A DNA stretch of 64,000 nucleotides from a bacterium HR28. GTDB taxonomy: Bacteria; Chloroflexota; Chloroflexia; Thermomicrobiales; Thermomicrobiaceae. Position numbers and translations under genes: made by a program. Positions 44,089 through 47,610 of this stretch are shown in pieces (the stretch's first letter is position 1; each line of letters opens with the position of its first letter). A model generated the notes under the pieces. It was given only the letters and a program-made list of their open reading frames with translations. It was not told the DNA's origin and ran no database searches. The DNA lies in contig BEIE01000001.1 of NCBI GenBank assembly GCA_002898255.1, positions 992,001-1,056,000 of the forward strand. Reading direction: 5' to 3'.

Positions 44089-44652
44089 CAGCGACGCTAC
44101 TCGCTGCACTCCGCAATCTCGGCGGGGGACGTGCGTGGTCGCTCTGGGTGAGGTGATGTTCCCAGTGTGACCGTCGTGCGTCCCCTCACCGTGGTTGCGA
44201 TGACACGTCTCATCGGGACAGTGGGACACCAGTGCATCCTGGCCAGGAGCCGCCGTCGTGGTGCCATCGGCGTCGAACGACAGGGGCGAAAACGGTGGCC
44301 GAGGCAGAATGCACAGCAAGGTTGAGCAGCAGTACCGGATGAATGATCGCGCACTGGTCTCGGGCGACCGTCGGCTGCAGGCTTCGACCTGAGGGTGCTG
44401 TGGCGCGGGCGTTTCATCGGTGGCTCTGGGATCTTGGGTGCCAGCTGCCAAGCCGGCTCTTTGCTATTCGCGACGCGTGAGGTGGTATGGACAGAACGGC
44501 AGTATGGTTCGCCCTACCGAGAGGCGCGAGCCTGTGGGGCGTCTGGGAGCAGGCCGCGCGGATGAGTGGGTAGGCTTGTCGCGGTCGTCCGGTGTGTCGC
44601 TGCGCGACGCGTCGAGTGTGGCAGACAAGCAAGTGATGAGAGAGGGAGCTTT
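44089..44652. other. 564-bp gap before the threonine-synthase-like gene
   Basis: No convincing reading frame, no tRNA and no leader with attenuator-like run of Thr codons. It may hold the promoter of the downstream gene. An AGAGGGAG ribosome site lies at its end (44641-44648). Confidence 0.35.
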
Positions 44653-45771
44653 ATGGAATGGTCGTACCGCTGCACGCGTTGTGCAGTATTGCTGGTACCC
44701 GAAGCGACAACATGGTGCTGTCCACGTTGTGGTGGTGTGTTGAGGATCGATCCGCCACTCCGACTTGTCACGGACGCAATTGATGCCGAAGAGACGACAC
44801 TGTGGCGCTATGCTGCAGCATTGCCGGTCGGACGATCACCGCGCACACTCGGCGAAGGCATGACGCCTTTGGTCGAGGGAGAACTCGATGGGGAGTCGGT
44901 GCGCTTTAAACTGGACTTTCTGTTGCCAACCGGTTCCTTCAAAGACCGCGGGGCAAGCGTGCTTCTCGCCTTCTTGGCTGCCCACGGTGTGCGCAGGGTG
45001 ACAGTGGATTCGTCCGGGAATGCCGCGGCGGCTTTTGCCGCCTACGCGGCGCTGCACGGATTGGAGGCATCGGTCTTTGCTCCAGCTGGAACCTCGCCGG
45101 AGAAGATCGTCCAGGCCCGTGCCTACGGAGCGGAGGTCGAGTTCGTCGATGGGCCGCGTGAGACGGTCGCCGCTGCGGCGCAGGCGGCGGGACGAGCTCC
45201 AGCGACGGCTTATGCGAGTCACAATTGGCATCCTGTCTTTGTAGAAGGCACGAAAACATGGCTCCTCGAGGTGTGGGAGCAACTCGGTCGACGTTGGCCG
45301 ACAGCGTGCTTCATGCCGGTCGGTGGGGGAAGTTTACTGCTCGGGGCGCACCTAGCTGTCCAAGCCCTCGGCGGGAATGGGCCAGCTCTGGTGGCTGCCC
45401 AGCCGGAAGCCTGTGCACCGCTGGTGCGGGCCTGGATGCGTCCAGATCAGGCGTTGGAGCCAGTAGAGCCAGGGGCGACGCTAGCGGAGGGGACACGGAT
45501 CGGCCGACCACCAAGAGGGGAGCTCCTGCTCGAGACGCTTCGGATGAGCGGTGGTTGGCCAGAAGCAGTGCCCGAACCGTTGCTGGTCGAGACTACTCGG
45601 CTGCTGTGGCGGCAAGGCCTTTACGTGGAACCAACCGCAGCGCTGGGAGCGGCGGCTTATCGGGCGGCACGACGACGTGGTTGGACGCCAGTGGAGCCGG
45701 TTGTGATCGTGCTCACTGGCAGCGGGCTGAAAGCAGCGGGTGCAGTGAGGCACATTCTGGATCAGAAGTGA
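44653..45771 (+). CDS. threonine-synthase-like PLP enzyme with N-terminal zinc ribbon
   Basis: 372 residues. A zinc ribbon C7-x2-C10 and C23-x2-C26 opens the protein, then 'TLGEGMTPLVEGELDG' and 'LPTGSFKDRGASVLLAFL' with the PLP lysine at K97, 'VDSSGNAAAAFAAYAALHGLEASVFAPAGTSPEKIVQARAYGAEV' and 'MPVGGGSLLLGA'. This is the fold-type II threonine synthase layout, which makes threonine from phosphohomoserine. Related cysteate or diaminopropionate-type enzymes share the layout, and the lack of neighbouring thr genes leaves the reaction unproven. SD AGAGGGAG is 4-5 nt upstream. Confidence 0.8.
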   Translation: MEWSYRCTRCAVLLVPEATTWCCPRCGGVLRIDPPLRLVTDAIDAEETTLWRYAAALPVGRSPRTLGEGMTPLVEGELDGESVRFKLDFLLPTGSFKDRGASVLLAFLAAHGVRRVTVDSSGNAAAAFAAYAALHGLEASVFAPAGTSPEKIVQARAYGAEVEFVDGPRETVAAAAQAAGRAPATAYASHNWHPVFVEGTKTWLLEVWEQLGRRWPTACFMPVGGGSLLLGAHLAVQALGGNGPALVAAQPEACAPLVRAWMRPDQALEPVEPGATLAEGTRIGRPPRGELLLETLRMSGGWPEAVPEPLLVETTRLLWRQGLYVEPTAALGAAAYRAARRRGWTPVEPVVIVLTGSGLKAAGAVRHILDQK

Positions 45772-46210: not shown

Positions 46211-46242
46211 AAAAAGCGGTTCCGACGAGCCCCGGTTCCCGC
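46211..46242 (-). terminator. 3' end of the candidate RNA
   Basis: On the minus strand GCGG (46242-46239), CCG/CGG and CCGC (46219-46216) can pair locally, followed at once by TTTTT (46215-46211). The same 3' arm can instead pair with the 5' end of the RNA. Confidence 0.6.
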
Positions 46243-46412
46243 CCCTCCGTGAGCCGTGACGAGGTTTCACCTCCCCACTCGGCGCCGTTCAGGATCATCA
46301 CCGCGCACGTTCCAGGGCCATGCGCGGGATGAAACCGTCCGGTTGTCCGGAGCAGTCACTCAGCTTGCGCTGAGTGCTTCCGAGCGGGCCGTTACCGACT
46401 CCTCGGAACCGC
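46211..46412 (-). ncRNA. candidate free-standing structured RNA, about 200 nt
   Basis: The 5' end GCGGTTCCGAGGAG (46412-46399) pairs with the 3' end CTCGTCGGAACCGC (46229-46216) at 13 of 14 positions. A second helix continues inward (46388-46382 with 46244-46238). Inside are a perfect 8-bp hairpin with a GCAA tetraloop (46376-46357), TCCGG-ACAA-CCGGA (46351-46338), a 7-bp CCGCGCA/TGCGCGG hairpin (46327-46301) and a two-part hairpin with GAGGT/ACCTC (46283-46253). TTTTT follows the closing arm. A near-consensus promoter places the start at about 46412. It resembles neither RNase P RNA, tmRNA nor SRP RNA; a divergent 6S RNA cannot be excluded. Function unknown. Confidence 0.65.
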
Positions 46413-46418
46413 ACTCTC

Positions 46419-46447
46419 AGTACAGCACATCAGTGACCGGTTGTCAA
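46419..46447 (-). promoter_or_regulatory. promoter of the candidate RNA
   Basis: Minus strand: TTGACA (46447-46442), 17-bp spacer, TGTACT (46424-46419). The expected start, 6-7 nt further, coincides with the first base of the RNA's closing stem. No protein gene lies downstream in this direction. Confidence 0.7.
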
Positions 46448-46782: not shown

Positions 46783-47610
46783 TTAGGGACGCGACGTGCG
46801 GAATGTGGCGATGTACTGAAGCAGTGCACGAAGATCGGCTTCCGAAAGGACGTCGGTCGAGTACGCTGGCATTCCTTCCTCGGTTCCTTCCCGGATTGCT
46901 CGCACCGCCCGCTGGTCGGTGGCACGAAGTTCAAGGCGACCCGGTGCATTGCCGACGGCACCGTGGCAATTGACACACCCGAGTGCCGTATAAAGCGCGG
47001 CGCCGCGACTTGCCCCGGTCTGTGTTGAGTCAGCGCCAGCGAGTTCCTGCGTTGTGGGAGTAGGTATGACGGGAACGGGCGCCAGAGTGTTGGGACTGAG
47101 ACTGCGGAGATAGGTCACGACAGCCCAGATTTGCTCGTCCGAGAGCCGATCGCCAAAACCGGGCATGCCAGTAAAGCTCAAGCCATTGGCGATGATCCAA
47201 TACAGTTCTGCATCGGAGCGTGCCTGGGTGTCGGCGTCGTTCAGCGCGCTGGCCGGTGGATAGCTGAGCATACCGAGCCATCCTTTGCCATCGGCATCAG
47301 CTCCGTGACACTGGGAGCACGCGCCGAGATAGACGATGCGTCCCGTCTCGAGCGCTTGTGGACGAGCGCTGCTCGGAGGAGTCAGCTGCGCTGCACCCTG
47401 TGCGGCGGCCCGGTCGATCATCGTGCGTCCGAGTTGGCGCTCGAAGGGCCAGTCGGTGCGGTGCGCAAGCAGGGAGGGTCCCCAGAGCCAAGCACTGAGG
47501 ACAAAGAGGAGAAGCGTCAGAAGGCTGCCAGCAAGCAGCCAGAGGACCCGTCCGAGCCATACCCGTATCCTCTGGCTACGCGGCGTCATTGTCTCGATCT
47601 GTTCGGCCAC
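46783..47610 (-). CDS. membrane-anchored dihaem cytochrome c
   Basis: 275 residues. A single N-terminal membrane helix (about 21-43) and two c-type haem sites, C98-S-Q-C101-H102 and C212-V-N-C215-H216, each followed by a candidate Met ligand ('TGMPGFG', 'EGMPAYS'). The two cytochrome domains lie outside the membrane and are joined by a Pro/Thr-rich linker at about 178-200. It carries electrons in respiration, perhaps to an oxidase or alternative complex III. The start is a GTG with AAGGGA 8 nt upstream; the promoter at 47683-47655 fits. Confidence 0.9.
   Translation of the reverse strand: MAEQIETMTPRSQRIRVWLGRVLWLLAGSLLTLLLFVLSAWLWGPSLLAHRTDWPFERQLGRTMIDRAAAQGAAQLTPPSSARPQALETGRIVYLGACSQCHGADADGKGWLGMLSYPPASALNDADTQARSDAELYWIIANGLSFTGMPGFGDRLSDEQIWAVVTYLRSLSPNTLAPVPVIPTPTTQELAGADSTQTGASRGAALYTALGCVNCHGAVGNAPGRLELRATDQRAVRAIREGTEEGMPAYSTDVLSEADLRALLQYIATFRTSRP

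Follow-up and report, generated by a model that had tools for sequence, protein, structure and literature searches.

A predicted structured noncoding RNA gene in bacterium HR28 and its proposed RNA family in the Thermomicrobium/Sphaerobacter lineage

What does the gap between two convergent genes in the genome of bacterium HR28 encode? Within the window, i.e. the whole 64,000-nucleotide stretch of DNA analysed here, a PALP/threonine-synthase-like gene (44566-45771, plus strand) and a cytochrome c gene (46783-47610, minus strand) both point into this gap. Between them the minus strand reads, from 46447 to 46211, as a promoter (TTGACA-17-TGTACT), a closing helix and TTTTT (Table 1). The 5′ arm of the helix (GCGGTTCCGAGGAG) starts at 46412, 6 nt past the −10 hexamer, and the 3′ arm (CTCGTCGGAACCGC) ends at 46216, immediately followed by the T-run at 46215-46211. 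Pairing is complete at 13 of 14 positions, with a single G·G mismatch; the helix in full, termed P1, comprises 16 positions. An earlier note on this DNA had described a minus-strand RNA gene between inward-pointing neighbours, and direct reading found each element where it was said to be: the promoter and closing helix, the 13 of 14 pairs, a perfect 8-bp stem with a GCAA loop (46376-46357) and the TTTTT after the 3′ arm. Its view that this agreement is hard to get by chance is supported by a sharp island of conservation running from promoter to U-run in five Thermomicrobium genomes. Three points were absent from it: two divergent paralogues per genome as a rule, a closing helix constrained in sequence, and a second general helix, P2.

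Table 1 Features of the predicted RNA gene (copy A) in window coordinates
Feature	Position	Strand	Evidence
−35 hexamer TTGACA	46442-46447	−	TTGACA or TTGACG in 36/36 members
−10 hexamer TGTACT, extended −10 (TGC) ahead, 17-nt spacer	46419-46424	−	Geometry conserved across members
ncRNA copy A, ~197 nt + U-run	46216-46412	−	Fold z −6.05; covariance model R1 142.9 bits; conservation island; 5′ end 46412 inferred
P1 5′ arm GCGGTTCCGAGGAGTC	46397-46412	−	16-pair P1; pairing in 93.7% of cells (27 sequences), both sides changed at 4 pairs
P1 3′ arm GGCTCGTCGGAACCGC	46216-46231	−	Same 27-sequence P1 alignment
P2 5′ arm CCCGCTC	46382-46388	−	P2 90.6% paired; 6/7 pairs with double changes
P2 3′ arm GGGCGGG	46238-46244	−	Same P2 pairing data
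P3 hairpin, 8-bp CACTCAGC-GCAA-GCTGAGTG	46357-46376	−	Several compensatory changes, five congeneric species
P5 hairpin, loop GCCCTGGAA	46301-46327	−	Compensatory stem changes, invariant loop, five species
P6 hairpin GTGGGGAGGTGAAACCTCGTCAC	46256-46278	−	Lies where the crown is best conserved (93-96%); 10-nt match to Shine-Dalgarno consensus (complement of 16S tail)
TTTTT run, terminator-like 3′ end, directly after P1 3′ arm	46211-46215	−	Read directly

From the sequence evidence we regard it as very highly probable that the locus is a gene for a folded noncoding RNA and that this RNA represents a new family. The predicted fold of this gene, hereafter copy A, has a minimum free energy of −117.4 kcal/mol, compared with −88.7 ± 4.75 kcal/mol for shuffled sequences (z = −6.05), and none of 200 shuffles did as well. 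When copies from the genus were aligned with several hundred bases of flank, identity was 0.7-0.96 from about −50 to +200 and only 0.15-0.63 in both flanks, which points to selection on the promoter and the RNA rather than on their surroundings. A coding gene was rejected, as no frame is open in every member (18 of 36 carry stops in all three frames) and the indels among members are not multiples of three.

The earlier note had suggested looking for homologues in related genomes and asking whether the closing helix is kept there. DNA, pattern and covariance-model searches yielded 36 distinct members, with RNA lengths of 185-284 nt, and P1 covaries among them. The DNA search returned orthologues at 80-92% identity in four congeneric species; in further genera of the family the match was confined to the promoter and first bases. 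Altogether, 18 of the 21 genomes of the family carry the RNA, whose members score 102-150 bits against the model; the three genomes without a member are 54%, 62% and 78% complete. In a sister family of the same order, four out of five genomes carry a longer version (about 256-284 nt). The rest of the class and a sample of 400 genomes from across the phylum gave no credible member when scored with strict filters, which a distant form could escape. The family of copy A appears limited to the Thermomicrobium/Sphaerobacter lineage and the sister family, and previously undescribed. Carriers with names are Thermomicrobium sp., Thermalbibacter longus, Sphaerobacter sp., bacterium HR26 and Chloroflexi MAGs; among them are the named strains Thermomicrobium sp. 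CFH 73360 and Thermalbibacter longus CFH 74404. No neighbouring gene is constant; neighbours vary between genera, which argues for action in trans.

The architecture common to the members is a stalk, formed by P1, an internal loop and then P2, below a multi-hairpin crown. P1 is kept in all 36 members, with the consensus GRTYCCGANGAGTY / GGCYYGTYGGRRYC, in which N pairs as G·G, U·G or C-G, and P2 is likewise general. Over 27 sequences, 92.8% of the P1 and P2 cells are paired and 10 pairs are doubly changed (54 such cells), a result equalled by none of 500 shuffles; sliding P1/P2 by one column reduces pairing to 36-48%. The alignment pairs 5-380, 28-357 and 31-354 were outscored by just 2, 2 and 9 of 20,077 background column pairs, respectively. 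Within the genus alone we counted 14 doubly compensated pairs, located in P1, P3, P5 and other crown helices. Kinship among the sequences is not fully corrected for in these counts. Besides pairing, the stalk is constrained in its letters (CCGANGAG/CUCGUCGG): the inner P1 pairs CCGA/UCGG and GAG/CUC plus a U·G are near invariant in the 27 sequences, the U·G pair being present in 26 of them.

This U·G pair also bears on the reading that no RNA is made and that the locus is a DNA-level element, with the arms of the closing helix serving as inverted repeats at the ends of some mobile or recombination element. The helix does resemble terminal inverted repeats. DNA repeats would not, however, keep U·G pairs, and their conservation favours an RNA; moreover, copy A is single per genome, the promoter and the U-run sit exactly at the ends, and searches gave no plasmid match and no real match in viral contigs. 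No true relative among phages, plasmids or mobile elements remained, and we consider the chance of a DNA-level element negligible.

A second, divergent copy lies outside the window in the same genome (copy B, G000:C1:612004-612208, plus strand; locus L073:1495-1699), with its own promoter (TTGACA-17-TATCCT) and T-run. It scores 139.7 bits against the model, the training set of which included a related copy B. The sole stretch shared by the two copies in blastn is a 10-nt exact match in P1 (best E 0.047), which marks the stalk as the conserved portion. Two copies are likewise present in other genomes of Thermomicrobium, in those of Sphaerobacter and g3, and in two from the sister family; genera g4 and g5 yielded one copy each. 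Weak candidates for a second copy in g5 were discarded, since they look like coding sequence and have neither promoter nor P1. The copy B of one congener (G005, locus L141, contig G005:C57) is cut at the contig end, so its partial match is an assembly effect.

Which known class, if any, could account for such an RNA? A cmscan of the locus against the 4227 families of Rfam 15 gave no match at the gathering threshold or at E ≤ 5, and 11 divergent members gave nothing relevant, so that the novelty suspected in the earlier note stands. That note had been unable to assign the RNA to RNase P, tmRNA, SRP or a riboswitch, rightly in each case. The RNase P RNA gene (rnpB) of the genome is at G000:C4:234371-234726, away from the copy A locus; tmRNA is at G000:C1:5861-6213, and ARAGORN finds none within the window; the bacterial SRP RNA is at G000:C5:98030-98129. 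A riboswitch or mRNA leader is ruled out because there is no fixed neighbour gene: the downstream gene is convergent, and the neighbours differ between genera. In some members CCGANGAG ... GAAAC ... GUC recalls the core letters of the hammerhead ribozyme. These letters nevertheless pair with each other in P1, the needed core U is a C in every member, GAAAC is present in some members only and Rfam gives no match, and the hammerhead was rejected. A literature search found no description of the family; it did not cover a 2017 survey of 224 candidate RNAs, most motifs of which are reportedly in Rfam. The genome paper of T. roseum counts just one small RNA gene on each replicon (PMC2615216).

The case of 6S RNA (RF00013), which the earlier note had kept open with the caution that copy A has more internal hairpins, requires closer comparison. 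Like 6S RNA, the new RNA is stand-alone, about 200 nt long and closed by a helix, and it might be a 6S-like partner of RNA polymerase that substitutes where 6S has been lost. Indeed, the Rfam model found no 6S RNA in the seven Thermomicrobium genomes G000-G006 (searched to E ≤ 10 in the own genome), where 6S may have been lost or have strongly diverged. It is present, however, elsewhere in the order, in Sphaerobacter and g5 as well as in other families; in G007, G010 and G012 true 6S RNA has a locus of its own, and both Sphaerobacter and g5 carry a 6S gene together with the new RNA, the two at different places. The new RNA has no covariance-model match to 6S, and all groups are predicted to have a multi-hairpin crown instead of a rod with one large central bubble. 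We therefore rejected 6S RNA as its identity, and a 6S-like function seems improbable to us.

Among orphan RNAs, raiA, OLE and Chloroflexi-1 (RF01698) resemble the new RNA in their complex conserved fold and in a function that is difficult to infer, but the new RNA matches no Rfam model and is narrower in distribution than raiA and OLE. Its novelty lies at the level of the RNA family only, since stand-alone structured noncoding RNAs of unknown function are already known. Even so, the new family falls outside every one of the 4,227 Rfam families, and there are strong grounds for regarding it as a near-universal gene of an entire bacterial lineage; its stalk is backed by covariation, and a ready covariance model results.

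The closest parallel in design is offered by Y RNAs, the partners of Ro60, which combine a conserved terminal helix with a variable interior and a U-run 3′ end and may occur in several copies. The new RNA meets this description: its ends pair in a sequence-conserved helix, its interior varies, it has a U-run 3′ end and it usually occurs in two copies. It has no Rfam match, however, and the sequence of its helix is presumably unlike the Ro site. None of the 26 genomes in the two families with this RNA has a TROVE/Ro gene (PF05731), so a classical Y RNA is excluded. TROVE/Ro proteins are present in G023, G027, G033 and G039, which belong to families of the order other than the two that carry the RNA.

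What the sequence displays is a strong sigma-A-type promoter, a stalk of P1, internal loop and P2, a multi-hairpin crown and a U-run end. Copy A is likely an independent gene for a structured noncoding RNA of about 200 nt that acts in trans. On the mechanism proposed here, this RNA would be one component of a ribonucleoprotein, with a single partner common to both paralogues. Transcription would start at 46412, the first pair of P1, a position inferred in the absence of transcript or 5′-end data, and the RNA may be made constitutively, although no transcript has been seen. The stalk is proposed to bind a protein present throughout the lineage, on the grounds that the inner bases of P1 vary less than pairing alone would demand, whereas the crown differs from one genus or paralogue to another. 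This variable crown would bear the copy-specific business end. With neither a protein partner nor a phenotype seen, we advance this stalk-centred mechanism only tentatively, at somewhat short of even chances. The sequence conservation of P1 could instead stem from the needs of RNA folding, from contact with another RNA or from the way transcription is initiated. It is rather unlikely, though conceivable, that the two paralogues of a cell form a Thermomicrobia-specific ribonucleoprotein of unknown type, in which their common, sequence-specific stalk serves a single unidentified protein and the crown has a copy-specific job that is new among bacterial noncoding RNA classes. The mechanism of the new family could still prove ordinary.

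Not all conservation resides in the stalk. Within Thermomicrobium the most conserved part is the P6 region of the crown (0.93-0.96), from which we infer that the crown matters too. Two alternatives place the function there. The RNA might be a base-pairing regulatory sRNA, in which crown loops such as the P5 loop GCCCUGGAA seed mRNAs and the stalk merely protects the ends. Such a role would fit the trans location and the crown stems that change compensatorily around an invariant P5 loop in five species; since loops are not kept between genera or paralogues, whereas the P1 sequence is, we hold it to be unlikely, though by no means dismissed. Alternatively, the RNA might be directed at the ribosome through a segment, GGGGAGGUGA / AAGGGGGUGA, that pairs with the anti-Shine-Dalgarno of 16S rRNA. 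Complementarity of 10-11 nt to the 16S tail is found in all Thermomicrobium copies (A and B), in copy A of Thermalbibacter/g3 and in g4, and the segment sits in the most conserved crown region (46256-46278). It is partly within a hairpin stem, however, and no match longer than 8 nt exists in Sphaerobacter, g5, the second g3 copy or the sister family. Being confined to some genera, anti-Shine-Dalgarno pairing was rejected as a family-wide function, and we give a ribosome-directed RNA little credence. In copy B the complementary segment lies at about 1638-1648 of L073.

Returning to the preferred reading of a stand-alone gene, its promoter is conserved in detail. The exact 17-nt spacer, together with 6 nt from the −10 hexamer to the first base of P1, recurs in 31 of the 35 members tabulated. 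A simple sigma-70 scan did not list the promoter of copy A, because TGTACT lacks the A at position 2. Within the spacer (window 46425-46441), position 5 is G in 28 of 31, position 7 C in 29, position 8 A in 26 and position 16 G in 29; among the stretches fetched, this GNCA...G pattern occurs in the family promoters and otherwise in one unrelated stretch. It is possibly a regulator site or a signature of strong promoters. We did not call an operator in the spacer, the sample of fetched stretches being too small. A TG ahead of the −10 hexamer is usual among family members, and 28 of the 36 have at least four consecutive T residues within 14 nt after P1.
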